A stretch of 22,705 bases of DNA from a virus. Position numbers and translations under genes: made by a program. The notes beneath the pieces are model-generated. The model had not been told where the DNA came from and made no database searches. It was given only the letters and a program-made list of their open reading frames with translations. Numbering within the stretch: position 1 is the first letter of the stretch; every line of letters begins with the position of its first letter. Shown here piece by piece: positions 6,601 to 22,705 of the stretch. The stretch is taken from the IMG/VR virus record IMGVR_UViG_3300013137_000104, positions 1-22,705 of that record; one strand, given 5' to 3'.

Positions 6601-8611
6601 AAGACACAGCGTACACATCAGCACGATCAAACTCATAATATACGCTGCTTGCATCTGTGCTAGGATTGCCCTTGCGGTCGGCAGAGGCAGCAAAGGTTTT
6701 TATTGTGTTTGTGCTGGTCTTTGTTCTGTACTGACCGCTGACGGTAAGATCAGGAGTATACACCACAGGAACAATCAACCGAATGTTTCCTGCGGTAAAA
6801 CCTCCCCATCCACTGTCAGTGGAATTGGTGAGCGTAAGCGTTATGGTGTCGGTGTTTCCGCCACCCGACAGAGTTCCATTGCTAATTACCGCACACCCGC
6901 CGTCATTGTTGACGATTCCGATTTGCCTTATTTCCACAGCCGATGTTGATGTTCCGTAATCCTTGAATCTATATGGAACAGCAGAGTCTAGCGAATCAAA
7001 ATCTGATGTCTTGTTGACAGTGTATACTGCGGTATCGGTGCCGTTATTGGGCGTTCCCGTATAAGAAACCGTGAGATCATCGCTAACCAATTTTCCGTAC
7101 ACCGTAAGGCTGTCAATGTCCTTGATGGCGTATCCAGGCTTGATCTCGTACACCAACGAACTGTTGACCGTATCTTTCGGAGCCGTCAGATTGCTGCCTG
7201 CGGGATTGGTGAAGAAAGCACCTAGAGTGAATCCCGTGAGGTCGGAGTAGATGTATCCTGTGCGTCCAGATGTCACCGAGCCGCTGATGCCGTACAAGAA
7301 CAGGCGATATGTTCCTGTGCTGACTGGATTCACGCCGTGGACGCGAGCCGTGCCCACAACGGTGCGAGAAGCATTCAAGAATCGCACAAGGGCAGAACCC
7401 GAACCAATCGTATGAAGATTGTCCGCGAATGTTTGCCCAAGGTTGCTGGCACCGCCCACCGTAGCGTCAATGTAGTTTCCAACCGTGTACGGAAAAGTTT
7501 CGATGTTGGATGCCGTTGTCCGCGCTTTTGGGAGTGCAACCACCTGCGGATACTGATTCTCCACTTCGTGTCCAAGCACATACGATTTTCCGCTGCCGAT
7601 GGACAGACTGTAGTTAGTGGTGTCGTTTGCGCGAACCTGCACTTCAAACGGACGAACTGTATACGATCCCGATTCATCAAAGGTTCTGCGGGCAAGCGCG
7701 TTCTCAATCTCTCCGTAGGTGACTCGCTCCACCTTTTTCGTGACGCGACCGCCTTCAAAGCGCAGCAGTTCAACGAAATCCGAAGGAGTCTCTGACAAAT
7801 CCTTTTGGTCAAGAGACAGAACAACGGTGTAGCGGTCTGCACCAGGCGCGTTGTAGTTGTACGAGCCAATGGCAGGATCACGAAGACTAGAGTCTTCCTG
7901 CTCTGTTACATTGTCGTTGGTTACCGTGAAACCGATCTTCTTTGACAGTTCGGCAAACGCTTCATCCGCAACAGAAGCAAACTCAAGGTCGCGGTAGGAC
8001 TCATCGCTGCTCAAGCGGTAAGGTGTGAACTGCTGCAAGCCTGTGCGTACAAAGAAGCCGTTGATGTAGAATATTCCCTCTGCCACACTGACCACTTTGC
8101 ATGACCCGCTCGCAAATGAGTCTGTCGCTAGAGCAAGGGCATTCGTGCCTGTGTACGAAACATCGGGAGAGTTCACAAGATTAACGGCGGTTGCGCTGAA
8201 CTCAGACCCCGAATAGAAGTCCACAATCAGTACAAGGTAACCATCGCTGTTGGAATCAGGTGCAATGTACCCAACAACTTTTGCGCTTGTGGTTTCTTCC
8301 GTGGCAGTGAGCGTGCCGCCCACAAGTGGCTCAAAGTCCGTGACACCGTACAGTGGGCTGTCTACGCCCACATCCACCATCAAGAAAGAAGCGTTGCGAA
8401 CGGTGATTCCGCCGCCAACTATCCGCGAACCGTCCTTGAACAGGTGGTCACCCACCCGCGACAACTGATTCTGCAAAATTGTCTGCAATTGGGTGAGTTC
8501 ACGCGCCTGAACCGCGTAGCCAGGCTTGAAAAGAACACGCAAAAATCCCTTCGCAGAGTCAAAGTCATCGTAGTACGGGTTGATGTTAAAAATGCTGGGA
8601 TCGTATGCCAT
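3638..8611 (-). CDS. DUF4815-type giant baseplate/tail structural protein
   Basis: This 1657-residue protein opens with a DUF4815 signature at residues 11-50 (NPYYDDFD, FLRVLFKPGYAVQARELTQL, QTILQNQL). Other landmarks I associate with this family are MEKRIDDVEVFAKLSL at 885-900, RLVDRSVLPYIP at 1151-1162, YFDGVSVTAG at 1183-1192, and DPLSQTFFVD followed by LPVTVQIRP and GYPSPSVVMPFS at 1288-1345. The C-terminus YYRTPCVKNIRVVSFI (1642-1657) is also typical. The family is structural in T4-like marine phages. It sits where T4 has genes 9-11, so an outer-baseplate or fiber-attachment role is inferred, but no homology to gp9 or gp10 is visible by eye. The ATG is preceded by GAGGA, nine bases after the gp8 stop. 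No frameshift or stop interrupts the reading frame. Confidence 0.85.
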   Translation of the reverse strand: MAYDPSIFNINPYYDDFDSAKGFLRVLFKPGYAVQARELTQLQTILQNQLSRVGDHLFKDGSRIVGGGITVRNASFLMVDVGVDSPLYGVTDFEPLVGGTLTATEETTSAKVVGYIAPDSNSDGYLVLIVDFYSGSEFSATAVNLVNSPDVSYTGTNALALATDSFASGSCKVVSVAEGIFYINGFFVRTGLQQFTPYRLSSDESYRDLEFASVADEAFAELSKKIGFTVTNDNVTEQEDSSLRDPAIGSYNYNAPGADRYTVVLSLDQKDLSETPSDFVELLRFEGGRVTKKVERVTYGEIENALARRTFDESGSYTVRPFEVQVRANDTTNYSLSIGSGKSYVLGHEVENQYPQVVALPKARTTASNIETFPYTVGNYIDATVGGASNLGQTFADNLHTIGSGSALVRFLNASRTVVGTARVHGVNPVSTGTYRLFLYGISGSVTSGRTGYIYSDLTGFTLGAFFTNPAGSNLTAPKDTVNSSLVYEIKPGYAIKDIDSLTVYGKLVSDDLTVSYTGTPNNGTDTAVYTVNKTSDFDSLDSAVPYRFKDYGTSTSAVEIRQIGIVNNDGGCAVISNGTLSGGGNTDTITLTLTNSTDSGWGGFTAGNIRLIVPVVYTPDLTVSGQYRTKTSTNTIKTFAASADRKGNPSTDASSVYYEFDRADVYAVSSVIATNTTDNSTVNVTADFELDDGQRETHYGLSRLYLKPTAATEARYSSSNINLTVSYSYFAHGGLASAPFVGALSYAGIPYENIPVFTNPRTGKTVSLANCLDFRHSGPTAATVRIKPYGANVDFVVAENTAVTYNHYLPRIDKLCVKADPDDGSALFFLVQGTPDLSPVAPPDPQDALVLSTITVPAYTHNTTDVVLDPVETKRFTMADLGKMEKRIDDVEVFAKLSLSESELESRSLKTSASATEPLKTSIFVDEFYGHSVGDVTDSLYTCSVDFERGELRPFFTTQSVNLIDTTPITDDDEVSDPETSSISNIAVSTDGVLTLQYTVTPYVENLFYTKTVKINPSNTVNWLGFMKLSSSVNPFFDTGYRPLIKTNSLMENDNWQSANPSNLRGFGTQWNDWDSIWTGIEDVEEEQDEIQKRVFELPRFTTDSAIPSRNSGSNRIGANRTAESVNQKTSNFIKTRKLKNRIKYRVGSRLVDRSVLPYIPTTTVSATVHGLKPNTTGLSVYFDGVSVTAGVSTDANGSASFSFGITAGAYSVGEKTVRISDAAVTENAVIAADATYYCTGLLRQRENGCVSVLPPEVRRQTVSSEAISRDPFNRDIDSVEANHWSDPLSQTFFVDKKLYPDGLMLKSVSLYFAAKDSALPVTVQIRPTVSGYPSPSVVMPFSTVTKIPSEVTATATAPQATNFQFSSPVYLEPGEYALCVLTNSSSYELFAADSSVNANANTDAVGGRAGNNQTVGTLFAPQGIGAAVADNATDLMFALGRCDFSQSTSGNIQYRNLSTCTGAHVLKFYAPEIVPNSCSVSRTIGSYSFLNNEAVYPSTTLTAPNLQYTLTRGNLSAVSPVVYLNSLYGAAVTQSTSGRYVSRVVELPDDLHSKGLAVFLDENTPSGSSTRVYYRYSETGEEDIFFKPWSAVSRTNPTFASTSELDFREGAFRVTAGTTFGSYQIRVDTLKSTPGNWGSYYRTPCVKNIRVVSFI

Positions 8612-8615
8612 GTGT

Positions 8616-8620
8616 TCCTC
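8616..8620 (-). promoter_or_regulatory. Ribosome binding site of the DUF4815 gene
   Basis: GAGGA on the minus strand directly follows the gp8 TAA and lies 4 bases before the ATG at 8611, which fixes the start. Confidence 0.65.
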
Positions 8621-10987
8621 TTAGAATCCTAGACGGAGCCTGAACTCTTCGGTTTGACCCGTGCCGCGCGTGACAGGTCGTACATTGTTTATGTATAGTA
8701 TTTCGCCTGAAGTGGGGTCTATTTCTGGCAGGGTTACGGTGCTGATCACATACTCTCCGAACGCTGCACCTGTGGCACCATAAGTCTGCACATCACGGAA
8801 CTGTCCAGTCACATTGGTCAGGTACAGCAAGCCGTATGACGGATTTACGAAATTCCACCTGTACACCTGTCCCGTGGCGTAATGACCGAATTCTCCTGTC
8901 ACGCCTTGATGCACCAGATCGCCACTGGAGAAGGAGTTCTGCGTCAGCGGGGCATACGATATGTCTAGCGTACCCGTGGCTCCGCTCACGCTTGTAGCCA
9001 CCTCAAGCACATGAAGACCGCTGTACGAGGGGGTGTTGTTCAGGTCAAAATACGACTGACCCGTTTCCACCACGCGGTACAGTTTCTGCACGGTGTCATC
9101 GTTCTGCACCACTTGCACATTTCCACCGATGGACTTCGTGACCACCACAAGTTCGCCGTTCGTGACTTCAACCCCATTCACATCGCCACTGACTCCTGAT
9201 TGTGCGCCCCTTATCGTGTATCCGCTCACGAAGTTTCCTTCAGATGTGACACGGACATAGAGATTGCCTGCATTGCTGTCGAGCACTGTTCCTGAAACAT
9301 CAAGATCGTATCCGAAAGATATGCCGTCACCACTTGTTGTGGTAATCACAGATCCTGCGGGCACGGACTGCGAAACCGTTTCTCCATCAAAAAAGTCTAG
9401 AGCATTGACCACAGAAAGACTGTAATCACGAATACGGTCAAGACGGCTGACAAATCGTCCAGACGAGTTCAGTGTTTTCAGCGTGACAAGTTTGGTCACC
9501 GAGTTTGGAGCGGTCTTGATTGCGTCCACCTTCGCCAACGCAAACGACTCCGTGCCGATAATGTAGTTGTCGGCTGATCCGTCAAAATGAGCGGCATCGG
9601 GAACAGCGTCTTTGCGGATAAGGGTAATGTCTCGGTAGTACGGATTGTTTTGACCCGCAAGCAGAGCCGTTCCACCAAGAAGCCGTGGATTCTTGATGAT
9701 GCCGAACTGACGATATGTTCCGCCCGTGATGAACTTGTTCTGGTCTTCCTCACCGATGTCCACGATTATGAGGATGTCCTTGATGTTCAGTTCTTTCAGA
9801 ATATTGCTGCCGTGACCGCCCTTTGGAGACAGCACAGCGGTGAGTGTGGGGTGATCCGTTCCCGCCTGCACTTCACTAGTCACCTCAAGCAGCACCTTGC
9901 TGTAGTTGCGACCCCCGTTGCCCTGTGTTTGTATGTCAACAGCGGTAATCTCTTTGTCGGTATTCATGGTGGGGAAGGCAAACGCTCCGCTGCCGTCACC
10001 CACAATCTTGATGTACGGCAAAAAGTCCACCGCAGCCTTATTGGTCTGTGTAGTGGGCGTAACCACGAAATCCACCGCATCGTTTTCCACGGTAAATATT
10101 ATTTCATTTGTTGCTGTGAAAACTGCCGTGATGACACCGTAGTTGTTTACTTCAGCAGGATTTGCCGTGCTTGCGTTGACACGCATCACATATCCAACAA
10201 GATTGTCTGGAGTGGTTGATGTGAGAATATTGATGCGATCACGAGAAGCAGCGTCAGTTACGCGAACCTGTTTCACCGTGCTGCTGATCTCGGTGAATCC
10301 AGCAACCTCCACAAGATAGGGAGTGCCTGCATCAGCAATCGTCTGATTGTACGCATACGGATACACGCCTGGAGTGGCTGTGTTGTCCACATCTATCCGC
10401 GCAATCTCGCCATTCACCGCTTCAAGTTGGGTGTTGTACTGATTCTGTGTCTCGTTGTCGCTGCTGATGGTGGCTACATCCACGGGAATGTAGTCTGTTA
10501 GTTCGTATGGAAGATCGCCTTCCTTGATGGTAGCAAGATACTTCCACACATAGCCGTCACCGAGGGTGACCGCCTCCGATGTGACATGGGTTGGCTTTAC
10601 GGTGGAACCAGTGGAGTTTGCGCCGTTGTTGCCCAAGCACTTGTACACATGGTTTGCATCGGTAACCACATAGAATATGGCGGGATCGGTGTCGTCAAAC
10701 AGGTCAACGGTGTCATCGTACTGATCGTAGACCGTTCCGCTTGTCCACTCGTAACGGGGCAGGGCGAAAAGAATGTTCTGTGGGTTGAGTTTCTTGTACC
10801 CGATGATCTCGTTCATTACCTGATATTCAGCAGCCACGGTATCGGAATACGCCGATGGGCTGTTCTCGTTTGCCCATGTGGTGCCCTTTGCAACAAAGAA
10901 AAAATACTGATTCTCGTTGCGTTCAAGTTCCGCCAAGAAACTCTCGGCGTATGAGCGTTCAATTGATGCCTTCAGGTAACTAGCCAT
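8621..10987 (-). CDS. 8: Baseplate wedge protein gp8
   Basis: This 788-residue protein matches the gp8 wedge pattern at both ends. The N-terminus has RSYAESFLAELERNENQYFF and VAKGTTWANENSP (11-44), followed by VYKCLGNN (114-121) and GDGYVWKYL (143-151). The middle carries LSPKGGHGSNILKEL (386-400) and TYRQFGIIKNPRL (424-436), both characteristic. The C-terminus SGEILYINNVRPVTR (760-774) is the usual gp8 closing motif. T4 gp8 is about 334 residues; the extra length here lies in beta-rich inserts (roughly 200-380 and 500-745), as in cyanophage-like relatives. gp8 dimers join gp7 and gp10 in the T4 wedge, which fits its place after the gp7-like gene. The start lies 11 bases after the previous stop with a G-rich ribosome site. 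Confidence 0.88.
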   Translation of the reverse strand: MASYLKASIERSYAESFLAELERNENQYFFFVAKGTTWANENSPSAYSDTVAAEYQVMNEIIGYKKLNPQNILFALPRYEWTSGTVYDQYDDTVDLFDDTDPAIFYVVTDANHVYKCLGNNGANSTGSTVKPTHVTSEAVTLGDGYVWKYLATIKEGDLPYELTDYIPVDVATISSDNETQNQYNTQLEAVNGEIARIDVDNTATPGVYPYAYNQTIADAGTPYLVEVAGFTEISSTVKQVRVTDAASRDRINILTSTTPDNLVGYVMRVNASTANPAEVNNYGVITAVFTATNEIIFTVENDAVDFVVTPTTQTNKAAVDFLPYIKIVGDGSGAFAFPTMNTDKEITAVDIQTQGNGGRNYSKVLLEVTSEVQAGTDHPTLTAVLSPKGGHGSNILKELNIKDILIIVDIGEEDQNKFITGGTYRQFGIIKNPRLLGGTALLAGQNNPYYRDITLIRKDAVPDAAHFDGSADNYIIGTESFALAKVDAIKTAPNSVTKLVTLKTLNSSGRFVSRLDRIRDYSLSVVNALDFFDGETVSQSVPAGSVITTTSGDGISFGYDLDVSGTVLDSNAGNLYVRVTSEGNFVSGYTIRGAQSGVSGDVNGVEVTNGELVVVTKSIGGNVQVVQNDDTVQKLYRVVETGQSYFDLNNTPSYSGLHVLEVATSVSGATGTLDISYAPLTQNSFSSGDLVHQGVTGEFGHYATGQVYRWNFVNPSYGLLYLTNVTGQFRDVQTYGATGAAFGEYVISTVTLPEIDPTSGEILYINNVRPVTRGTGQTEEFRLRLGF

Positions 10988-11531: not shown

Positions 11532-14500
11532 TTACAGTTCGTACCGAGAACGAATGGAGTTGAAGTTCTGCTGTATTTCCTGTGGCAGCAGAATCCTGTC
11601 GTACACGCGGAAATCGGATACCCGACCACGGAACCAGTTGTCCTTGGACGGACCGTCACCCATGATGCTGCGGTCAAGGAATCCAACCGTCCACCGTCCG
11701 CGAGTGCCGTCTGCTTCCACATCCCACGGCAGCACAGCCGACAGCGAAACGGTGGTATTGAGTTTTTGCTGTCCGTTGATCCACATCTGAACCGATAGTC
11801 CGTCCACCTGAAGCACGCAGTGTGCCCATGTGTTCGGCAGAACGGAGTTGTCGGGTGTGGCAAGAACGGTTGGATTTGTTCCGTCCCACAGCACAGCCTT
11901 CACGCGTTTATTCACAGGATCGTATCCAAGATACTGTCGAACTCCATTGGTGGAAGACCCAAGAATGTAGTGGTCGCCCGCGAACAGGTTGGGCGTGGGA
12001 TAGAGTATAGTCTCCACCGTGAAGCGATTCTGTCGTGGAGTTCCCACCGAAACCGCAGGAGCAGGATCTATCTCAAAGTGGTCACCCGATGTGTATCCAT
12101 CAAAACGGAAGTACCCCATGTCTGCGGTTGCGTACACAGGTTGATTCATGGCGTACACTGGCTGAACGATTCCGTCACGATCCTTCAGTCGATACGCACT
12201 GCCGTTCAGCAGTTCGGCAATTGACGGCTCCGTGCCGTCCACAAGGTCTATGCGTGGTTCAAAAATCTGATGCCGCGGAGTTCCGTCATTGGGATAATAA
12301 GCCCAAGAGCGTAAAGCAGCATATGTAGTGCCAGGAAGCCACTGTGCGTCACCAGCACTATTAAGAGGTATTGTTCTGCTAGACACGCCGTCTGTGGTGT
12401 ATCTACCGCTTGTTGCACTATGGGCAAACGCTGGTCCTGTAGGAGAACCCGATGGGTACATATAGTACACATACAAATACCATTTGTTCTCTTCGTACCC
12501 GTTCGGAACCCTTTGTGGAGGAGTAACAAAGAAATAATGATTCCAGTTGGGATTACCCCCATTTCTAGGAACAACTCGGTCAAGAGTATATCCAAAACTA
12601 TCACTGTTTATGGATGGGTAACCGTTTCCGTGAACACCAAAATACATATTTCCGTTTGCAGTGTTGGTATCATTAATGGCTGGACGGTCATCGTTTCCCA
12701 TGCTCAAACCAGTCCACGGAATACCCAACTCCTTGCGGTTCATCCACACCGAAAATCTGTAAATCTGAGTTTCGTCAATGGGAATTATTGGTGCATTAGT
12801 TCCGATGCCTCTAGAATATCTGCCAACCAAAAAACCACCGTATCCCGTATTTGATCTTCCAACAGACCCAGCCCGTCCCCATGTAACTCCAACAAATTGA
12901 CCGTATACTGCGCTGTAACTCAAACCCGATGGTGTAACGAGTAAGTTGTACGGAGCCTGTGTCAGATCAATGTTTGGAAATTGCTGATTATCTGTGTGGA
13001 AAGGGAAAATTCGGGGTCTGCTGTCGAACACTAGCGATTTTCTGCCCCACGGATCGGAATCAAATGTAATGGAAGCAAGACCTCTTCCCATAGCGTTTGC
13101 ATCAGTGGCTATTAGTACATCACTCCAATACACCGTGCTTGTGCCAAAAGTCTCGTTTCCTATTCCTGTTCCGCGTCTAAAAAATTCAGATTCTCCCGCA
13201 TAAACATAACGAGAGACAAGATTGCCGTTAATAATATCTTGGATGTATTCACTGTTAGATGGACCGCTCACGCCGTCAAATCCAAGCACCAATCCATTGC
13301 GAACCAAGAAGTCTTCATTGTTCGGAGACACCAGATCGGCAACAGGAATGCCAGTGGAACGCGACCTGTTCAGTGCAGCATCACCGTTCAGGAATGTCTC
13401 TATGCGGTTGCTGCCACGCCGCCACTCGCCCACGATGGTGCCCAAGCACGCACCCGACACATGGGGATCGTATGCAAGGGTGTTCTGTGGGGACGCAAAA
13501 TTTCCGCCAGCAGGACGGAATCCCACAAGTCCCGTCTGCACGGTGGCGTTGTTGGGATACTGCGGAGTGCCGTCAGGCAGTATTCGGTAGTACTCCGATG
13601 TCTGTTGTGCAGCAGTCCTGTCTGTTTGGTTGTACGAACGGTTGAAGAAAACGGTGTCGTTCGTGACTCCAAGCAGCGCAGTTGCCGCAGAAACCAAGCC
13701 GATTCCCCGAGCAGGGCTGTCGCTTGTGGAGCGATACACCATGAACACATCCATGTCATCCGTGAGCGTGATGCCGTTCGTGAGATAGAAATGCTGACCA
13801 GTGAGTATCTTGCCTGCTGTGTTGCCTGATGCTCCGAATGTAAAGCCAGGAATACCACCAAGGGTCTTGCCGTTGTTTGTCCACACGCTCTGCGGCGAAT
13901 ATATCACTCCACCGTTGAAGCAAATGCCCGTGATGCCTGTCTGAAGCACGGGACGAAGAGCGTCAATGGTGACTCCCGAGTACGCAGGATCAGTCGTCCA
14001 CCGTCCCCACTTGGGAGGAATTGCGTGGTTTCCTGACGGAGAAGCATCGCTCCACACATCCATGCTTGCGCCGTTTGCCACCGCACCACACACGCCGATG
14101 TTCTCTGGCTTCAGCCACAGCACAAGTCCGCTTATCGTGTTAGGATCAGGACCTCGTTCGTGACCAAGCGTCCAAGACGCAGTGCTGCCAAGAGGCGCAC
14201 CGATTGGGTTGTGTGCTGTGCGTCCGCTTTCTGGCACATAGCACCAAGTGTACCCAAGGGATGTGCCAACGAACACCGTGCCGTTGGGCGTGGTGCTGCC
14301 GTTCGGTCCAACCTGTGCAGTGCTGCCGATGTACGGGTTGTACCCAAGTGGATACAGGTCACCTGTTGCGCCAAGCCAATATCCAGACGCGGTGATTCCG
14401 TTGTTCCGAAGGTCAATGGTGGTTCCCGTGGTGTACGGGGTGTACTGACCAATCACGGGAGTGAGGAAATATGTGGCTTGTGCAGACGAGGTGAGTGCGT

Positions 14501-15653
14501 TGTCTATTTCACTCTTGAACAGCACCGATCCAAACATCCTCATGCCCGCAGGGTGAATGATGCTCTTGAGCAAATCAAAATAAGAATCAAAGGACACCTC
14601 GCCCTTCAGCACATACGAAAAGTCCTGATAGTAGTGTCCGTCTTGAATCTTCTTGTTTGAAGAAATCTTTCCGCGATTACCAGAGAAGTAGCCAGGATAA
14701 TTCGTGACCGCGCTCCGCAGAGCAACAACCTTGGCGGATCGCGCACCGCTGTCGCTGAAGATGTTCAGCACAAGGTCAGCCAAATAATTGAGTCCAGAGT
14801 TGGCAATGCCAATCTTCTTTACGCCACCCGAAAAACTCACTTGGTCGATCTTTGCCGAAAAGCCCACACCGTTTGCGTCAATCACGGTGGCAGTGTCACC
14901 TACGCGATACCCGTCACCAGGAATCTCAACAAAGAAGTCTCCGAGAACGGAGTACGCTGTTTCCACCCACTCATCGCTGCCCTGCTCAATGTACACCTGT
15001 TGACCAGGCAGGAATGTGCCGTTTATGTCTGAAATGAAGAACTCCGTGACAGGCAGACCGTTGAAGGAGTACTGCACCACGCTTTCAATGAACGCAGACG
15101 CGGAAACCTGCGTGCCAGAGTACTGCGCCAACCGCCCGTTTTTGCCGCTGAACAGGGCAGTGCCGTTGGTGGAAGTGGTCTTCACCGACTTTGGTTCAAG
15201 CCACTGTCCATCCGAAGCCTTTAGAATGTCTTCCTTGGGATAATAGATTTCCAAGTCGCTGTCGTACAGCACACGGAACAAGAACTTGTACGCGCTTTCG
15301 GTTCCCTTGTTGCCGTAGAAGTCACGAATCTTCTTCAGCAGCGTGTTCTTGTTGGGCTTGTTGCCGCTTGCGTTTGTTGCAAGCACCTCGGGAAAGGTGA
15401 GCAGATAGGTGTTCTTAAAATGGGAATAGAACTCATCAAGGCTGCGGTCAGCGTCATAGATGGTGTCTAGTTTGCCAAGCACATATCCAGCGTTTCCCTT
15501 TTGATCCAACCACTCATAATACGACTTGATGAACAGCACCAGTTTGCGGTAATCTGCACGCATGAATGACGGAAACTGCTCCTCAATGAAAGGAGACAGA
15601 ATGTCTTCAAGTGCTTCCGCTTCGGTGTTGAGTATTATGTTCTTTGGATCCAT
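11532..15653 (-). CDS. 7: gp7-like baseplate wedge protein with lectin-like C-terminal domains
   Basis: This is a 1373-residue protein. Residues 1-390 resemble the wedge protein encoded after gp6 in cyanophage-like T4 phages: SFMRADYRKLVLFIKSYYEW (29-48), KNTLLKKIRDFYGNKGTESA (102-121), YPGYFSGNRGKIS (319-331), IQDGHYYQDFSYVLKG (336-351) and HPAGMRMFG (367-375). Residues 390-500 form a linker with YNPYIGS and CYVPESGRTAHNPIGAPLGS. Three adhesin-like regions follow: the front of a LamG fold (508-808), an AT-richer carbohydrate-binding-like part (about 810-1140, YRFSVWMNR at 965-973, WYLYVYYMYPSG at 1058-1069), and a complete LamG (about 1178-1373, RVSDFRVYDRILLPQEI at 1344-1360). The gp7 name rests on position between gp6 and gp8 and on recalled relatives, not on visible similarity to T4 gp7. 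It starts 4 bases after the gp6 stop, probably coupled. Confidence 0.75.
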   Translation of the reverse strand: MDPKNIILNTEAEALEDILSPFIEEQFPSFMRADYRKLVLFIKSYYEWLDQKGNAGYVLGKLDTIYDADRSLDEFYSHFKNTYLLTFPEVLATNASGNKPNKNTLLKKIRDFYGNKGTESAYKFLFRVLYDSDLEIYYPKEDILKASDGQWLEPKSVKTTSTNGTALFSGKNGRLAQYSGTQVSASAFIESVVQYSFNGLPVTEFFISDINGTFLPGQQVYIEQGSDEWVETAYSVLGDFFVEIPGDGYRVGDTATVIDANGVGFSAKIDQVSFSGGVKKIGIANSGLNYLADLVLNIFSDSGARSAKVVALRSAVTNYPGYFSGNRGKISSNKKIQDGHYYQDFSYVLKGEVSFDSYFDLLKSIIHPAGMRMFGSVLFKSEIDNALTSSAQATYFLTPVIGQYTPYTTGTTIDLRNNGITASGYWLGATGDLYPLGYNPYIGSTAQVGPNGSTTPNGTVFVGTSLGYTWCYVPESGRTAHNPIGAPLGSTASWTLGHERGPDPNTISGLVLWLKPENIGVCGAVANGASMDVWSDASPSGNHAIPPKWGRWTTDPAYSGVTIDALRPVLQTGITGICFNGGVIYSPQSVWTNNGKTLGGIPGFTFGASGNTAGKILTGQHFYLTNGITLTDDMDVFMVYRSTSDSPARGIGLVSAATALLGVTNDTVFFNRSYNQTDRTAAQQTSEYYRILPDGTPQYPNNATVQTGLVGFRPAGGNFASPQNTLAYDPHVSGACLGTIVGEWRRGSNRIETFLNGDAALNRSRSTGIPVADLVSPNNEDFLVRNGLVLGFDGVSGPSNSEYIQDIINGNLVSRYVYAGESEFFRRGTGIGNETFGTSTVYWSDVLIATDANAMGRGLASITFDSDPWGRKSLVFDSRPRIFPFHTDNQQFPNIDLTQAPYNLLVTPSGLSYSAVYGQFVGVTWGRAGSVGRSNTGYGGFLVGRYSRGIGTNAPIIPIDETQIYRFSVWMNRKELGIPWTGLSMGNDDRPAINDTNTANGNMYFGVHGNGYPSINSDSFGYTLDRVVPRNGGNPNWNHYFFVTPPQRVPNGYEENKWYLYVYYMYPSGSPTGPAFAHSATSGRYTTDGVSSRTIPLNSAGDAQWLPGTTYAALRSWAYYPNDGTPRHQIFEPRIDLVDGTEPSIAELLNGSAYRLKDRDGIVQPVYAMNQPVYATADMGYFRFDGYTSGDHFEIDPAPAVSVGTPRQNRFTVETILYPTPNLFAGDHYILGSSTNGVRQYLGYDPVNKRVKAVLWDGTNPTVLATPDNSVLPNTWAHCVLQVDGLSVQMWINGQQKLNTTVSLSAVLPWDVEADGTRGRWTVGFLDRSIMGDGPSKDNWFRGRVSDFRVYDRILLPQEIQQNFNSIRSRYEL
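12263..13253 (-). other. AT-richer carbohydrate-binding-like insert in the gp7-like gene
   Basis: Two hand-counted lines (12481-12600) give about 42% GC, below the flanks. The segment encodes residues about 801-1130. Its start coincides with the end of the first LamG part (LGFDGVSGPSNSEYIQD), and its end precedes the second LamG. The pattern YRFSVWM, MYFGVHGNG, WYLYVYYMYPSG, ALRSWAYYP, FEPRID resembles a beta-sandwich carbohydrate-binding domain seen in other marine phage fibers; that is my recollection, not a search result. Confidence 0.55.
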
Positions 15654-15657
15654 TACC

Positions 15658-17475
15658 TTACGCCTTCAGGTTCTGCTTGCGGTTGGTCTGCGACTGCACG
15701 CTGACCTTCACGGAGTCGGTGTACCCTCTGTTGATGCGGACAATCTTGTTCTCAAACACGAATATGTCTTCGTTTCGCGGTTCAGCCGTGAGCGTGAACA
15801 GCACCGATGTGCTGATGGGATTGAAGTACGAGTTGAACGAGACTCGTCCCCCATCGTAATCAACGGTTCCGATCCGTGGGTACACGGTGTATACGGTGCC
15901 ACCGCTGTTCTTTGCCACTAAATTCAGGATGCCGTTGCCGTCATCGTTCACATAGACATCGCTCACGGTGGTTCCGTCCGTGTCCACATGAGAGAAAGTG
16001 GAGGACGAAACCACGGACGAGTGACCGCTGTGCGGGTGGTACAGCGGATTCTTGAAATCCACGCTGAAGCCCTTGGACAGGACGAGTTTGCTCAAATTAA
16101 TGGTCTTGCGAATCTTTACCGTGGTGTCGTTGCTCAAGATGGACGGGTCAAGCCTGTTCATTCCTTCGGTGAGTTTGGACAGGTAGAAGTTGGAACCAAA
16201 CCGCTCAAGAGTGGTGGCGGAATATGTGAATATGTACGCCACAATCAGTGCCTTCACCGTTCCCACGCCAAGCGATGTGCGGGTGGGGTCGTATGTAACA
16301 AGCGAATCAATCACCAGATCAATGTAGTCAGGATCAACGATTTCGGGTGTCACCGTGACTACCGAGCGGTTGTCCTTCAGAGTTCGCGCAAGGCTGCGCT
16401 TTTCTTCCGCCGTGAGTGCGGTTCCCGTGCGCGGCTTCACCGCGACAAACACCTTGCCGTACTGCGGGGGTGTCACCGTTTCGCCACCGTACACATACAC
16501 TGAATCCGCTGCGGGATAGTCCTTGATGACTGCTGCGGTGTAGTCGTCTTCTGTGACGGCACGATTCTGTGATTGGTAGAAGCGGGGAGCAAGGAACTTG
16601 ATCTTGGAAACGCTCTCCTCAAGTGCGCCACCCGAGGACGCGCTCACCACGCCGATGTTTCCCAATCCTGAAATGGAGGACGAGAACGAGTCAATACCGT
16701 TGCCTTGATCGCCGTTTGTTTCAAGATATTCAACAATCACGATGTTTCCTGCCTCTGGCTGCTGACCAAGGAAATCGTCACCGAAGAACAGTTCGTACAT
16801 TCCTGCTTCCTTTTCCTGAAGGAAGAACACCTTTGATGTGGGTGTCAGGTCAATGTACGAATCAGAATATACCCATGTGTCTTCTATTCCCGTGTTGTCC
16901 GTTGCAGAAGACTTGACGCGCACCTTGATGGTGCTTGTGTCGATCTTGTCGTTGGGAATAAGCAGCACCGAAGACGGCTTCTTCGTGGGATCGTACACAT
17001 AACTCATGCGGCGCAGTGTGCCCTCGTACACTTCCACATCCGCAAACTGCTGTGTGTCCGCGTCTGCGTACACTGTGTCAAGCAGCACGAAGCGGTACTG
17101 CGTTCCCGCAGGATCGGTGCCCACGAACTCCGAGCCACGCGCCAGATAGGTGGACTCCGATGCGCCTGCCGCCGAAATGCCAAGCACAGCCTTTGCTGCG
17201 CGGCGGGAAGTGGGCACATATCCGAGCGTCTTCGCGTGGGAAACCACGGACGGACGCAGAGCCGCGCTGTCAAGGAACATCTCGTTTGCCACCATGTTTG
17301 CGTAGAACGCCTGGTAGTGGGTGTTGTACGCCAGCACATCCAGCACCGTGGACAACACCGAACCATCAAAATTGTAGTCCTTCAGCGTGTCCTGTGATTG
17401 CAGGAACGCCTTCAGTGACGCTTTTGCGTCATCAAAGTCTAGCCCCACAATGTTGAAACTGTTCGTGTTAGCCAT
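15658..17475 (-). CDS. 6: Baseplate wedge protein gp6
   Basis: This 605-residue protein matches T4 gp6 (660 residues) and the related J-like wedge family. The N-terminal signature is clear: KDYNFDGSVLSTVLDVLAYN (32-51), HYQAFYANMVANEMFLDSAA (53-72) and AKTLGYVPTSRRAAKA (81-96). Further landmarks are ENRAVTEDDY-like QNRAVTEDDYTAAVIKDYPA and the C-terminal beta region ending in RINRGYTDSVKVSVQSQ. gp6 dimerises into the ring that ties wedges together around the hub and drives baseplate rearrangement on contraction. Its ATG shares one base with the gp25 stop (TGATG), so translation is likely coupled. The order gp25, gp6, gp7-like, gp8 supports the call. Confidence 0.9.
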   Translation of the reverse strand: MANTNSFNIVGLDFDDAKASLKAFLQSQDTLKDYNFDGSVLSTVLDVLAYNTHYQAFYANMVANEMFLDSAALRPSVVSHAKTLGYVPTSRRAAKAVLGISAAGASESTYLARGSEFVGTDPAGTQYRFVLLDTVYADADTQQFADVEVYEGTLRRMSYVYDPTKKPSSVLLIPNDKIDTSTIKVRVKSSATDNTGIEDTWVYSDSYIDLTPTSKVFFLQEKEAGMYELFFGDDFLGQQPEAGNIVIVEYLETNGDQGNGIDSFSSSISGLGNIGVVSASSGGALEESVSKIKFLAPRFYQSQNRAVTEDDYTAAVIKDYPAADSVYVYGGETVTPPQYGKVFVAVKPRTGTALTAEEKRSLARTLKDNRSVVTVTPEIVDPDYIDLVIDSLVTYDPTRTSLGVGTVKALIVAYIFTYSATTLERFGSNFYLSKLTEGMNRLDPSILSNDTTVKIRKTINLSKLVLSKGFSVDFKNPLYHPHSGHSSVVSSSTFSHVDTDGTTVSDVYVNDDGNGILNLVAKNSGGTVYTVYPRIGTVDYDGGRVSFNSYFNPISTSVLFTLTAEPRNEDIFVFENKIVRINRGYTDSVKVSVQSQTNRKQNLKA

Positions 17476-17885
17476 CAGCGCAACCTTTCTAGTACGACCG
17501 ACACCCGATCTATCTTGCCGATCCCCACAACGGAATACTCCACATTCACCGTGTAGTAGTTCTCGTCAGGATTCGCTATGACATCAACAATCACATTTCC
17601 CACGCGAGGCTCGTGGTTCCGTATGGTTTGCAGAATGCGGTCACGGATTTCCATCGTGGTTATTGCATCTATTGGCTCAAACAGCAGAGGACGCAGCGAT
17701 CCACCGATGGTGGGCTGAAACAACCGCTCCCCGAACGAGGTGGACAGCAAGTTCTTCAAGGACAAGCGTACAGCACCGTCATCCCGCACCGTGAGCAGAT
17801 CACTGGTCTTCGGGCTACGGGTGAAAGTAGGGTCAATATCTGAAAAGACCGCTTTCGTGCTGTTGCTGATGATCCGTAATGCCAT
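17475..17885 (-). CDS. 25: Baseplate wedge protein gp25
   Basis: This 136-residue protein has the length and fold signature of the gp25/GpW family, which forms part of the wedge core and seeds sheath assembly. Visible marks are FSDIDPTFTR (14-23), the acidic/aromatic stretch RLFQPTIGGSLRPLLFEPID (54-73) and the conserved HEPRV (91-95), whose Glu-Pro-Arg is the family hallmark. It ends with a short beta strand segment (YTVNVEYSVVG). Its ATG directly follows the stop of the membrane protein gene (TAAATG), and its stop overlaps gp6. Despite the Pfam name lysozyme-like, members of this family in phage baseplates are structural, and no catalytic claim is made. Confidence 0.92.
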   Translation of the reverse strand: MALRIISNSTKAVFSDIDPTFTRSPKTSDLLTVRDDGAVRLSLKNLLSTSFGERLFQPTIGGSLRPLLFEPIDAITTMEIRDRILQTIRNHEPRVGNVIVDVIANPDENYYTVNVEYSVVGIGKIDRVSVVLERLR

Positions 17886-18554
17886 TTACTGTTTTCCGTT
17901 TTTGTAGGACAGATATGCGTTTATGTTCTGCGTTTTGTTTTCTATGAGTTCCTGAAGCGCGTCTTCCGTGATTCCCTCGTTCTCAATCTGATCCAGTTCT
18001 GTTGCCGTACACCAGTGGCAGCACAGGAATCCCATCGGTGTAATTCCGTCCATGCACTTGAGAGGCAGAACGCTGAAGTATTCAACGCTATTTATCTCAA
18101 GTCCAGAACGAAATGCGGACGGCGGCAGGGAGTCAACCCGTATTATTTTGCCAGCCCGTTCCTCCATGACGCGAACCAAATCCATGTAACGGGTAAGCAG
18201 CACATCCTGCGATTCAAGAATCATGCTCTGCGTTGGCGCGGCACACGACTCATGTGTAACCGAAAACCGCTTGATGGAAGTGCCGTCCGCAAACGATCCG
18301 CCGTTGTGAAACTGAAAAATGAGGCATCGACAAGCGCGGACGGTGACGCGGAGTTCCGTGAGCATTTCGTGGATTTGGGTGTGGGACTCCACGAATCGCT
18401 TCTCCTTCTGCGGCGACCACTTCAGCATGGACTTCTTTTTACGCAGGATTCCCCACACACCGATTCCCACTCCCGTGAGCAGAACACCGATGATCTCCCC
18501 GAACGCAAGGGCAAAGTCCTTCAGCAAAGTCAAAAATTCCGCTGCGTCTTTCAT
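17886..18554 (-). CDS. Membrane-anchored protein with GAF-like domain, unknown function
   Basis: The chosen start is the ATG at 18554, giving 222 residues. It overlaps the upstream stop by ATGA, whereas a longer reading to 18653 would run 33 residues into the upstream gene with no benefit. Residues 14-37 (FALAFGEIIGVLLTGVGIGV, then WGIL) form one membrane helix followed by a basic stop, RKKK. A helical linker follows, then a region resembling a GAF-type fold: CLIFQFHNGGSFADG (77-91), KIIRVDSLP (136-144), YFSVLPL (159-165) and MGFLCCHW (174-181). The closing helix is 187-214. Six Cys occur in the soluble part. GAF domains usually bind small ligands or sense redox state, but no ligand is visible. 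Its place between an unknown structural gene and gp25 suggests a phage function late in infection, for example at the inner membrane. Confidence 0.65.
   Translation of the reverse strand: MKDAAEFLTLLKDFALAFGEIIGVLLTGVGIGVWGILRKKKSMLKWSPQKEKRFVESHTQIHEMLTELRVTVRACRCLIFQFHNGGSFADGTSIKRFSVTHESCAAPTQSMILESQDVLLTRYMDLVRVMEERAGKIIRVDSLPPSAFRSGLEINSVEYFSVLPLKCMDGITPMGFLCCHWCTATELDQIENEGITEDALQELIENKTQNINAYLSYKNGKQ
18089..18096 (-). promoter_or_regulatory. T4-type late promoter-like motif inside the membrane protein gene
   Basis: The minus strand reads GATAAATA, one mismatch from TATAAATA. It lies about 204 bases before the gp25 ATG, so it could start a wedge-gene transcript, but the match may be chance. 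Confidence 0.25.
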
Positions 18555-19342
18555 CGGTAACCCCCAAAACCCGTTGGTGTACCCCCGCGCACTGCATTCA
18601 GGAAGTCGGGACTGACCAAACTGCCGTTCAGAGTGCCTCCCAACTTGAAGCACGGATCGGTGTTTGCCTCGTTGATGAGATTCGCTAGGGCGTTGATGCT
18701 CGTATATTTTTGAATGAAGTCCGCTGCCTGATTCTGCAAGGCTTCGGCAGCGTCCATAAGACCACCAATAAGGGCGTTGGCTTGATCCATGACTCCCGTG
18801 ATCTTGCCCAAGCCTTCCTGCAACTGTCGCACTGCATCGGCGGTGGCGGTTCCAAGGTTGTTGTCAGAGAACTGATTGAGTATTTTTTCAAGATCAACAT
18901 TTGCCACCACCGCGTAGTTGATGGACAACTGACCGTTTTGATTCACTACATTCAGCCCCACCCCAATATCCAATCCTTGAATGCCCAAGGCGCACTGCAT
19001 TTCTGCAAACAGGCTCAACGAACTGACGATGTTGATTAGTTGCTTGGGATCGGTGAACCGATTGCACTCGTTCTCAAATGCGTCCACGCGGTTGTCCAGC
19101 ACATTGATCGCGCTTTTCACTCGGTTCAGTTCAGGTAGTGCAGTGGTGAGGGCGTTGCTTGTCCCTCCAACTTGGGCGGCTTGTATGAGTGATTCTATTC
19201 TTGCGCCGTTTGCGCCACCCAACTGTCGATACACTGCAATGGCTGCTGCGTTGGGATTACGCAACATCTCATTGGTCAATCCAAAGTTGAGGATTCCCCT
19301 TTCACCGTCTGTCAGCGATTGTTTGCACGGACACTCTGCCAT
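18551..19342 (-). CDS. Helical virion-type protein of unknown function
   Basis: This 263-residue protein has no recognised catalytic motif. The N-terminus is Cys-containing (MAECPCKQSLTDGERG). Residues 45-115 and 150-230 are strongly helical and Ala/Gln/Asn rich, and a short beta-like stretch lies between (GLDIGVGLNVVNQNGQ, then INYAVVANV). The end NEANTDPCFKLGG followed by TPTGFGGYR is similar to what I recall from unnamed structural proteins near gp25 in cyanophage-like T4 phages. The start has a strong AAGGAG site that overlaps the preceding stop, and the gene ends in an ATGA overlap with the membrane protein gene. Alternatives include a tail chaperone or hub-associated protein; the sequence does not decide. 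Confidence 0.65.
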   Translation of the reverse strand: MAECPCKQSLTDGERGILNFGLTNEMLRNPNAAAIAVYRQLGGANGARIESLIQAAQVGGTSNALTTALPELNRVKSAINVLDNRVDAFENECNRFTDPKQLINIVSSLSLFAEMQCALGIQGLDIGVGLNVVNQNGQLSINYAVVANVDLEKILNQFSDNNLGTATADAVRQLQEGLGKITGVMDQANALIGGLMDAAEALQNQAADFIQKYTSINALANLINEANTDPCFKLGGTLNGSLVSPDFLNAVRGGTPTGFGGYR

Positions 19343-19347
19343 ACGCT

Positions 19348-19353
19348 CTCCTT
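19348..19353 (-). promoter_or_regulatory. Ribosome binding site of the 263-residue gene
   Basis: AAGGAG on the minus strand overlaps the TAA of the PAAR gene and lies 5 bases before the ATG at 19342, which supports this start and suggests coupling. Confidence 0.7.
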
Positions 19354-21343
19354 ATTGAACAGAATATTTAGGTATCACGACAGACGAGGTTACGAGCCAT
19401 GCACCCCCGTCCGCGTCCACCGTGAGTGGTCGCCCTGTTTCGCTTATGAGCGTAAGACCAGGCTTGGGCGTGATTCGCCACACATACTTGTCCTTGTTGT
19501 CGCCCCCTGCGGCTTTGGTTCCGCTCACCACATAATCCGTGTTAAACGAAATGCGGTTTTTTGTAACCGTGTCTGGTGAATATCCTCCCAATAAATCATT
19601 TACTTCTTGCATCACACCATTCAATTCAGTGCAATTTCTAGAAATAATTTCTGAATTTGTGGTTGCACTCGTATCCGCTGAATTCCAATAGTAAAAATGC
19701 TCTGCTCCAAGCACGGAACAATGGCGAATCACTTCATAATAAAACTTCTCGCCGCTTGCAGGAGAATACTGCTGTCCAAATGTTATTCCTACTATGAAGC
19801 CAGCATCACCCGTCCAACCGCGAGGACGAATCCACGGACGAAGATAAGCCGCTGAATCTGCTCGCTTGATTGCTCTCACTTGCTGTATGTCCACCAAAAA
19901 ACAATTCCATATACTATTTTTGAATCGCGGAAGTGTGTCCGTAAATGTATTGGTGTTGTTTCTTATGATGCGAGTATTGTCGTATGGATCTACTACCCAC
20001 GCAGTATCACTGTTCCATGATGCGTACAAATACGGTGCTGCGCCATCACCCACGGTATTTTCTTGATACACAGGATGTCCATACGGATCATATGCCCAAT
20101 CCTTGTCGGTGGTTTTGAATGACTCGTAATTACTCAAGCCAATATCAGGATAATTCTGCTTTGCTGTTTCGTAGAAACAGTATGTCATGCTGGCGTTCCG
20201 TATGGAGGAAAGACCGCCGTTCCAATAGATGTAACTTGGTTCAGTCTGTGGATGTCGATTGGTGGCAGCACGCAATGCACTGTTAGTAGGATACTTTCCG
20301 TCTTGCGTCAGCACCGTTTTAAGTGGTCTTGCCCCGTACCACTCTTGCTGCGCCCGAGGATCGCTTTCTATTGATTCTAGGGCGGCTTGACGATTTCCCA
20401 CAGGGTAATCGGTGAACGCATTTCCAGGAAACCCTTCCGTGTCAAAAACAAGGTAGTCTATGTTCGCTCCGCGATTTTTTAGACCAGAACACATCACTTT
20501 CCAGTCTTCAGAAATTTGATTTATAGCAGTTGCTCCCCATATGGAAGCAAGCGTCCAGCCCGCTCCTCGCAGATTATCTGATTTGCGATTAAACAAAAAG
20601 ATGCCAGTGGCACGATCACCGCAAATTCCAGGATAGGTGTTGTAATCAGGATTAGCAGCCACAAAAGCAGCAAAATCACCTCTCTTCTTTGTTTCGTTTT
20701 CATAGTATGCGTATCCGTTCCAGTAATACCACGGAGCCAACGCACGCATACCTTCAGGAAGACTGTTCAATCCGTTTACAATACCGTTTATCCTGTTACG
20801 GTACGATGTACTTGTGCCTATCTTCGTGAAGTACGATTGAGCAGAGTCATCAATATACGAAGAACTGCTGTTCGGTGCAGTGAGCCATATTAGTGGTTTC
20901 ACAAAATCGTATGTTTGAAAGTCTTCAGTTGTGTATGTCTCTGCGGCAATGCTTCTGTTTCTTCCAGAAACAGGAGGATGCCAAGTGGCAACCCAAATAG
21001 GATTGGGCGTTTCGGGTGGAGTGTATGAAAACTGCGGAGCCGTGCCAGGATTACGGCTTTCGCTGCCACGGCTTGATGTTCCAACCGTAAAAGTAGAAGA
21101 TCCAGTTGCTTGATGACCACAACTGGCTTGGCTTGCGGATGTGCATACAGGAATTCCGTTGATCAGGAAATTGGGTGAGCCGTTCACGATCACGGCGGAC
21201 GAGTGTTCATTGTTTCCGTGACTCTGCACAGGATTTCCCTGCATTGCTACAGGTAATCCGTCAAGATAAAAATCGGGGTTGCCAACTTGTATGGTTCCCC
21301 CTGCGGTGTCAAGATACGCACGGGATACCCCGTTTACTGGCAT
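19352..21343 (-). CDS. PAAR tail-tip protein fused to a glycosidase-like barrel
   Basis: This is a 663-residue protein. Residues 1-90 are a PAAR-type cone: GNPDFYLDGLPV, GNPVQSHGNNEHSSAVIVNG, INGIPVCTSA, SCGHQATGSSTFTVG. H42, H47, C75 and H77 are plausible metal ligands, C67 another. PAAR proteins cap the membrane-piercing spike. After a linker (91-115), residues about 116-595 look like a TIM-barrel glycoside hydrolase-type domain: PIWVATWHPP (115-124), ALAPWYYWNGYAYY (201-214), IDYLVFDTEGFPG (295-307), YLYASWNSD (438-446), AYLRPWIRPRGW (499-510), GAEHFYYWNSAD (546-557). D301 and E303 at a strand end are candidate catalytic acids. Residues 600-663 form a small beta domain. PAAR proteins without fusion are about 90-100 residues. 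The enzyme role is inference from motif layout; a structural or lectin role is possible. Confidence 0.75.
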   Translation of the reverse strand: MPVNGVSRAYLDTAGGTIQVGNPDFYLDGLPVAMQGNPVQSHGNNEHSSAVIVNGSPNFLINGIPVCTSASQASCGHQATGSSTFTVGTSSRGSESRNPGTAPQFSYTPPETPNPIWVATWHPPVSGRNRSIAAETYTTEDFQTYDFVKPLIWLTAPNSSSSYIDDSAQSYFTKIGTSTSYRNRINGIVNGLNSLPEGMRALAPWYYWNGYAYYENETKKRGDFAAFVAANPDYNTYPGICGDRATGIFLFNRKSDNLRGAGWTLASIWGATAINQISEDWKVMCSGLKNRGANIDYLVFDTEGFPGNAFTDYPVGNRQAALESIESDPRAQQEWYGARPLKTVLTQDGKYPTNSALRAATNRHPQTEPSYIYWNGGLSSIRNASMTYCFYETAKQNYPDIGLSNYESFKTTDKDWAYDPYGHPVYQENTVGDGAAPYLYASWNSDTAWVVDPYDNTRIIRNNTNTFTDTLPRFKNSIWNCFLVDIQQVRAIKRADSAAYLRPWIRPRGWTGDAGFIVGITFGQQYSPASGEKFYYEVIRHCSVLGAEHFYYWNSADTSATTNSEIISRNCTELNGVMQEVNDLLGGYSPDTVTKNRISFNTDYVVSGTKAAGGDNKDKYVWRITPKPGLTLISETGRPLTVDADGGAWLVTSSVVIPKYSVQ
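19363..19371 (-). promoter_or_regulatory. Late promoter-like motif before the 263-residue gene
   Basis: The minus strand reads CTAAATATT, a variant of the T4 late motif TATAAATA. It lies inside the end of the PAAR gene about 20-30 bases before the ATG at 19342. Only weakly supported. Confidence 0.25.
19560..20970 (-). other. AT-richer barrel-coding island in the PAAR gene
   Basis: Hand-counted lines inside give 37% (19861-19920), 43% (20581-20640) and 38% (20641-20700), though one (20521-20580) reaches 53%. The line 19381-19440 beyond it counts 65%. The island matches residues about 125-595, the barrel-like part, while the PAAR end and the C-terminal 60 residues keep the composition of neighbouring genes. 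Confidence 0.5.
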
Positions 21344-21348
21344 GATTG

Positions 21349-21354
21349 TCTCCT
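21349..21354 (-). promoter_or_regulatory. Ribosome binding site of the PAAR gene
   Basis: AGGAGA on the minus strand lies 5 bases before the ATG at 21343, within the 19-bp gap to the upstream stop. Confidence 0.65.
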
Positions 21355-21362
21355 AAACACTA

Positions 21363-21665
21363 TTAAACATCCACCGCACCCGCAAACTCCCCGCCAACGA
21401 TGGACTTCAGGAACAGGTATCCTGCCTTTACCTCGTTCATTCCCGCAGCATCAATGACGGCAGGAGCAAACCATGTGGGATAGTCTGCCACCTCCACGGT
21501 TCTGTTGTCCAACGGAATCTTTTCGTCTTCCCGTGCGTCTTGGGACACATATCCGTCCACCGTGATGCTGCCTGTTCCCGTGGTGTGGTTCAGCGTGATG
21601 GAACGAATTTTCCAATACTGCGAATAGGTTCCCGTTGGGTGCTGTATGATCTGTTGAAGTGCCAT
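21363..21665 (-). CDS. Small structural-type protein of unknown function
   Basis: This 100-residue protein lacks a signal peptide or membrane helix. Landmarks are QYWKIRSITL (16-25), a beta-strand pair with ITVDGYVSQDARE (34-46), and a C-terminal helix with NEVKAGYLFLKSI. The GYxSxxAR layout resembles small unnamed phage tail proteins I recall, with no known function. Its ATG overlaps the upstream stop by one base (TGATG), so the two small genes are likely translated together. It precedes the PAAR gene, so a tip, hub or assembly role is possible. Confidence 0.65.
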   Translation of the reverse strand: MALQQIIQHPTGTYSQYWKIRSITLNHTTGTGSITVDGYVSQDAREDEKIPLDNRTVEVADYPTWFAPAVIDAAGMNEVKAGYLFLKSIVGGEFAGAVDV

Positions 21666-21985
21666 CAGGTACTCTCCAATACTGATACGATGATGTCAAG
21701 TCCCGCAGTTACGCCTGCGGTTGCTTTGAGTGTGTCGCCTGTCGTGAGGGGAATCGGTGCGTCCAATGCTTGATAGGTGGACTGAATGGGAACCGCTGCT
21801 GCACGGACGATGTAGTAGCCCGTGGCTCCCTTGAACAGTTGAATGGACACGGAATTGGCTATCGTGGTGTTGGTGTTTGCAACATGAATGCCGTTCACGA
21901 TGGCGGTTCCCGTGATGCCATTGTAGATGTTTGTTGCACCAGTAGTGCCGATTGAAGTTGCGTAGTTTGTGTAGATGTCTGGCAT
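21665..21985 (-). CDS. Small beta-rich structural-type protein
   Basis: This 106-residue protein is rich in Thr, Ala, Val and Ile with alternating strand-like segments (AIVNGIHVANT at 28-38, NSVSIQLFKG at 44-53, YYIVRAAAVPIQST at 57-70). It ends with LTTGDTLKATAGVTAGLDII. The layout VxNTxxxxxxVxIxLxxG ... PIPLxxGDTLxA is typical of small beta-sandwich phage proteins found beside tail genes of marine phages; function is unknown. It has a strong AAGGAG site and one late promoter-like motif just upstream. Confidence 0.65.
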   Translation of the reverse strand: MPDIYTNYATSIGTTGATNIYNGITGTAIVNGIHVANTNTTIANSVSIQLFKGATGYYIVRAAAVPIQSTYQALDAPIPLTTGDTLKATAGVTAGLDIIVSVLEST

Positions 21986-21990
21986 AGGGT

Positions 21991-21996
21991 CTCCTT
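21991..21996 (-). promoter_or_regulatory. Ribosome binding site of the 106-residue gene
   Basis: AAGGAG on the minus strand lies 5 bases before the ATG at 21985, within the 18-bp gap following the LamG gene stop. Confidence 0.7.
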
Positions 21997-21999
21997 GTA

Positions 22000-22008
22000 G
22001 TATTTATT
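22000..22008 (-). promoter_or_regulatory. T4-type late promoter-like motif
   Basis: The minus strand reads AATAAATAC followed by TACAAGGAG. It is one mismatch from TATAAATA and overlaps the TAA of the LamG gene. A transcript starting from it would have a leader of only a few bases before the ribosome site at 21991-21996. Confidence 0.4.
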
Positions 22009-22705
22009 CTGTTGGTGCTGCGTTTTTGTATGGGTGGTCGTTGGGAAGGTTGGCTTCAAGTCCCCATTTCCATGCAAGGTAGCCTTCCACTAACTGACGG
22101 TCAGTAGTTGAAAGATGTCCTCTACAAAAGATTACTTCAGAAACAACACCAGTAAAGTTTGGTTCTTGGTCACGGTAGACTTTTCCAATTCGTAGAACTC
22201 CAGTTGTAACTTGTGTGTTTCCCGAAGCAGTAGAAGTTTCTGTCCCGCCGTTTTGTCGTAAACGAATACTTCCACCACTCAACTCAACTCCGCTGATAAC
22301 ATTAGTGCCAAAGGTGTATGACTGCGTGGTGACATCGTTAGTGCCATCCCAGTTATACACACCAATCAGATTACTTGTCCCCCTAAAATAGTTTGAAATA
22401 TATCCACCATTATCACCCCAGAAACCAGAGTTATTGAACCCGTCTGCATTATTTGTCGGAGCAGAGGTGGCACGACCCACGGTAAAAGCGGAATATGAGT
22501 TACTAAGAATAATGTTGGAAATATTGACTGACATTTCCAAAAATTTGAGTGTGCCATCAAAAGTTATTGCAGGTTTGCTGTTGAGTGTTAGTGTGTTGTA
22601 TACTGGCTGATTCGCTACCAATCCTTGAGTAGCGTTTCTTGCATTCCCGCTCTTGTCATTCCATTGACTTACATTATTGCCGTTCAGAGTGATGGTGTTG
22701 GCATC
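22004..22705 (-). CDS. LamG/concanavalin-like adhesin (5' end beyond window)
   Basis: The frame stays open from the stop at 22004 to the window edge, so at least 233 residues are seen and the N-terminus is missing. A TTG at 22621 is not the start, because the preceding 28 codons continue the fold (DANTITLNGNNVSQWNDKSG). The domain order is that of a LamG-type beta sandwich: SKPAITFDGTLKFLEM, YSAFTVGRA, VLRIGKVYRD, FTGVVSEVIFCRGHLS, and a closing helix with DRQLVEGYLAWKWGL and ANLPNDHPY. Such domains bind sugars or proteins on phage fibers and capsid decorations. The end resembles the small LamG-tail protein at 10999-11520. The parent protein cannot be named because its front is missing. Confidence 0.75.
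   Translation of the reverse strand, partial: DANTITLNGNNVSQWNDKSGNARNATQGLVANQPVYNTLTLNSKPAITFDGTLKFLEMSVNISNIILSNSYSAFTVGRATSAPTNNADGFNNSGFWGDNGGYISNYFRGTSNLIGVYNWDGTNDVTTQSYTFGTNVISGVELSGGSIRLRQNGGTETSTASGNTQVTTGVLRIGKVYRDQEPNFTGVVSEVIFCRGHLSTTDRQLVEGYLAWKWGLEANLPNDHPYKNAAPTE

Follow-up and report, generated by a model that had tools for sequence, protein, structure and literature searches.

A marine T4-like phage spike-tip protein in which a PAAR domain carries a large extension with a swappable core, probably a glycan-acting domain

The window analysed here is a 22.7-kb virus record (22,705 nucleotides), which carries on its minus strand part of the baseplate operon of a marine, T4-like phage. 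The baseplate genes recognised using Pfam and PHROGs are those for gp25, gp6, a gp7-like large protein and a gp8-like protein, the best named relatives of the gp6 being those of the Pelagibacter phage HTVC008M and the Methylophilales Melnitz phages (about 38% identity); gp5 lies beyond the window end and is present in the related contigs L002, L003 and L007. The gene of interest encodes a PAAR domain followed by a very large extension (Table 1). No T6SS or eCIS gene context was found, the locus being a phage baseplate operon, and in this respect the phage-tip setting proposed in the initial annotation is borne out.

Table 1 Features of the PAAR fusion gene and its neighbours in the window.
Feature	Coordinates	Strand	Remarks
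PAAR fusion gene, 663 aa	19352..21343	(-)	ATG start; SD AGGAG at 21350-21354, 6 nt upstream of the ATG
PAAR spike-tip domain, residues 1-95	21059..21343	(-)	H42, H47, C75, H77 aligned to phiKZ163.1
Linker, residues 96-117	20993..21058	(-)	Start of the module common to L004
Swappable cassette, residues about 118-588	19580..20992	(-)	Putative beta/alpha barrel
FDTEG, residues 300-304	20432..20446	(-)	Holds the candidate catalytic pair D301/E303, the same in every member
AEHFYYWN	19682..19705	(-)	Invariant E548/H549; candidate last barrel strand
C-terminal tail, residues 589-663	19355..19579	(-)	Predicted beta
263-aa syntenic protein	18551..19342	(-)	No assigned function; adjoins PAAR also in unfused relatives L035, L036, L038
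Small protein with N-terminal membrane helix	17886..18554	(-)	Conserved in position between PAAR and gp25; probable true ATG 18554
gp25 baseplate wedge	17475..17885	(-)
gp6 baseplate wedge	15658..17475	(-)

Some further features of the neighbourhood may be mentioned in passing. The small membrane-helix protein, which many loci retain between PAAR and gp25, contains an FHNGG motif and weakly matches PHROGs 30125 and 14038. On the other side of the gene, the gp5-PAAR interval is hypervariable: in the window (21363-22705) it holds small ORFs, one of them with a virion structural PHROG match, in L002 it holds collagen-like GPTG repeats together with a 964-aa ORF, and in L003 it is almost empty, while in another phage (L016, 3451-5001) the same slot is occupied by an orphan protein of 516 aa.

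That the N-terminus is a genuine PAAR cone, as had been proposed for residues 1-90, is clear from several independent comparisons. Residues 13-76 match Pfam PAAR (PF05488) at 4.2e-9 (36.9 bits, above the cut-off of 27), the protein matches PHROG 281 at 3e-14, and in a sequence search of the PDB the closest match of the first 95 residues is the phiKZ spike tip (6p1z, 2.8e-15). The residues at positions 42, 47, 75 and 77 (His, His, Cys and His) are the same in phiKZ163.1 and are putative metal ligands. By its profile, by these four positions and by its gene neighbourhood, then, the product is a PAAR spike-tip protein, and homology suggests that it caps the spike.

Behind the cone lies a large C-terminal cargo of about 570 residues, again as first described. 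Residues 96-663 gave no convincing match in Pfam, PHROGs, NCBIfam or the PDB, and an hmmscan of all five aligned members returned no Pfam family, including any glycoside hydrolase (GH) family, at E<=10. No relatives of the extension were found among 50,697 phage records, among plasmids or in a scan of GTDB genomes, while scans of IMG/VR with the whole domain and with different conserved stretches always returned the same six contigs, so that with the window there are seven carriers of the module in all. Three marginal candidates were rejected: a Klebsiella jumbo-phage fibre (E 0.08), which looks like an unrelated fibre and shares no motifs; galactose mutarotase entries in the PDB (E 0.63-1.5), which disappeared once the alignment was enlarged; and PDB 9ikc, where a single chain gave a short, weak and unconvincing match (E 0.34). 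Since seven contigs carry the module, and since dN/dS between two alleles of its cassette (see below) is about 0.19, the extension is nonetheless a real conserved protein.

As to its fold, the initial annotation had proposed a TIM-barrel glycosidase, to be checked by structure prediction and a fold search. The motifs on which this rested do lie where they were said to (FDTEG at 300-304, LRPWIRPRGW at about 501-510 and HFYYWN at 549-554), but the check itself was uninformative: two AlphaFold (AF2) models reached pLDDT values of just 34.6 and 28.6, too low for fold assignment, and Foldseek found no match with the low-confidence model, a query too poor for that result to mean much. Chou-Fasman propensities computed on the alignment show beta and alpha stretches in alternation and then a tail rich in beta, a pattern compatible with a barrel though not proof of one. 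Likewise, the acidic pair D301/E303 singled out previously is invariant across all alleles, as are E548 and H549; its place in a barrel pocket is putative. Conservation is rich in aromatic residues (W, Y, G and P are over-represented among conserved columns, and 75% of W and 66% of Y columns are invariant as against 45% of all columns), which would also be compatible with the proposal. There is a local resemblance between YLVFDTE and the YLVLDYE of the GH25 muramidase Cpl-1, and motifs of this kind are rare in ORFs of the surveyed loci, the motif in both comparisons having been chosen after the fact. Identity as a GH25 muramidase was nevertheless rejected, as an hhalign comparison with the GH25 profile scored 16.4, within the 12-22 range of shuffled controls; PF01183 (GH25) was not found in the window. 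Given the absence of any profile match, a barrel glycosidase is a putative assignment, to be treated as a lead and not as a result.

The history of the fusion can be followed by comparing loci, 80 of which were collected via gp6 and searched with profiles built in this analysis. These loci have in common the gene order gp5, variable cargo, PAAR, (small proteins), gp25, gp6, and in all 53 gp6 loci with a detectable PAAR (three of these being cut at the contig start) the PAAR stands as an ORF of its own, no longer than 154 aa; its fusion to the module is limited to the window's clade. The unfused state of the window's PAAR gene is seen in L035, where the gp6 and an 88-aa PAAR are each 68% identical to those of the window and where the two small genes known from the window, then gp25 and gp6, again come after PAAR. 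In L004 the arrangement is different again: PAAR is a separate ORF of 95 aa, and the module (60% identical to that of the window) sits behind a domain of about 250 aa within a 1438-aa protein encoded just upstream of it. As L039 has in the same place an unfused ORF of 240 aa, 74% identical to L004 residues 10-248 and stopping exactly where L004's module starts, we conclude that the module has been joined twice, to two different spike-tip-locus proteins. The 1438-aa protein ends in a second module of about 600 aa (L004, about 7729-9537), for which there are no relatives in phage records, and hhalign showed no similarity of the first module either to this one or to the 516-aa protein of L016.

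The second fusion partner goes beyond what was noted initially, and so does the finding that the core of the module is exchanged as a cassette. Nucleotide identity between L006 (the same contig as L003) and L008 (a type that also includes L007 and L009) is mostly 90-99% (about 96%) over some 15 kb, but within the cassette it falls to 58-73%, the boundaries lying near residues 118 and 588. Values of dS between the two are 0.10 for PAAR plus linker, 1.55 for the cassette and 0.23 for the tail, the last being conserved much as PAAR is and unswapped within the clade. Because synonymous sites jump too, the cassette must have been replaced by recombination, and not altered through amino-acid selection alone; plain fast evolution in place is ruled out for the same reason, and an assembly artefact by the occurrence of the same allele on three separate contigs (L007, L008 and L009). 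The low dN/dS quoted above shows that the cassette is under purifying selection. The window's cassette differs from that of L003 about as much as their surroundings do but differs more from that of L007, a pattern suggesting that the L007 cassette is the imported allele. A second sharp dip in L006-L008 identity occurs at about 15001-15560 of L006, in the large baseplate protein after gp6; the window counterpart of this dip falls inside 11532-15653, and the window homologue of this protein ends in a LamG-like domain.

Judged from these sequence comparisons, the module probably brings either an enzyme acting on glycans or a recognition domain to the site where the cell is punctured. The more specific reading that we place first, although only tentatively, is of a glycan-acting domain mounted on the spike tip, probably a hydrolase, with the swapped core suggesting a substrate that varies with the host. 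By homology, the gene product would be the central spike tip of the phage, its PAAR cone capping the gp5 beta-helix and, by analogy with T4, present as one copy per virion, which would lead the tail tube. The C-terminus of the cone would then carry the domain of about 470 residues and the conserved tail of about 75, the former a probable beta/alpha-barrel hydrolase using D301/E303 and presumably acting on a host envelope glycan where the cell is punctured. Since the core is swapped while PAAR and tail stay fixed, the substrate probably differs from host to host (a surface polysaccharide, LPS or the like), in contrast to invariant peptidoglycan.

Ranked next, though unlikely, is a tail lysozyme that cleaves peptidoglycan and has been relocated to the PAAR tip from gp5. 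The tip has to get across the wall, and in T4, where the tip complex passes through the outer membrane into the periplasm, the gp5 lysozyme helps it through the peptidoglycan (PMC7600766, PMC4576200); in the window's clade gp5 is without the T4 lysozyme domain, the gp5-like protein of L003 (369 aa) having Gp5_OB only. No Phage_lysozyme domain was found in the fusion gene or the window, and neither this nor SLT or M15_4 matched in the clade's contigs, which are, however, partial; the gp5 OB protein of Melnitz (L021, 7613-8653) does have a weak VanY-like peptidase match (E 1e-4). Set against such a transfer are the unfused L035 and L036, which have a similarly short gp5 and no module, so that no replacement lysozyme is required, and peptidoglycan would offer little reason for cassette swapping. 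That swapping is, on the other hand, also expected of a pure binding domain and to this extent counts against a hydrolase. A non-enzymatic glycan- or receptor-binding domain, with the swap as an exchange of adhesins, would fit the sharpness of the replacement in a near-identical background, the second dip in the large baseplate protein of the same phages and the aromatic-rich conserved positions; yet 470 residues and an invariant acidic pair exceed what binding needs, and the tip is held at the baseplate centre until contraction, so that we consider it, too, unlikely and rank it third. Least probable by some way would be an effector carried by the spike in the style of T6SS PAAR effectors, and acting in the periplasm, which the T4 tip complex does reach, or on a defence. 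Cargo fused to PAAR is a familiar feature of T6SS and eCIS (PMC8651086), but Pfam and NCBIfam gave no toxin, effector or defence family match, and in L004 the module is on a protein separate from PAAR. A glycan-acting hydrolytic domain thus stays first in the ranking.

A wider proposal, which we regard as more doubtful, is that the module represents a new protein family, one of exchangeable enzymes that determine host specificity from the central puncturing tip in contractile phages. Host specificity in tailed phages is usually ascribed to peripheral fibres, the PAAR tip being treated as a passive cone; if the proposal is true, host range would diversify through cassette swapping at the tip too and not only in the fibres. 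With a large swappable domain on the tip, attached on separate occasions to two tip-locus proteins, the puncturing point itself could be matched to the host, something that the two natural alleles in near-identical phages make directly testable, while the orphan family could add a new envelope-active enzyme. In the part of the literature covered, no PAAR-fused swappable cassette in a phage was found.

Among known systems, the closest are the tips of T4 (gp5.4, PDB 4KU0) and phiKZ (phiKZ163.1, PDB 6p1z), with which the window protein has in common its PAAR domain and a gene placed between gp5 and gp25/gp6, and in the case of phiKZ163.1 the H/H/C/H positions as well. A single gp5.4 caps the three gp5 chains of T4 (PMC7600766, PMC4576200), and both tips are stand-alone proteins of about 90 aa, whereas the window tip bears its 570-aa extension. 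Specialised PAAR effectors of T6SS and eCIS likewise consist of PAAR and then C-terminal cargo; unlike them, the window protein belongs to a phage baseplate operon, has no known effector domain and has a core that is swapped within a phage clade. The likeness to the T4 gp5 tail lysozyme, putative here, is that of an envelope enzyme on the central spike, but the protein is a different one, without lysozyme homology and with one copy expected instead of three. GH25 muramidases such as Cpl-1 have the local YLVxDxE motif in common with the window domain, which is far larger and has no profile similarity to them above shuffles. Finally, phage receptor-binding proteins are known to include exchangeable depolymerases (PMC6872550), and these are modular and exchangeable as the window module is, and glycan-directed as it probably is; their place, however, is in fibres or spikes on the periphery of the tail, whereas the window module is on the central puncturing tip.
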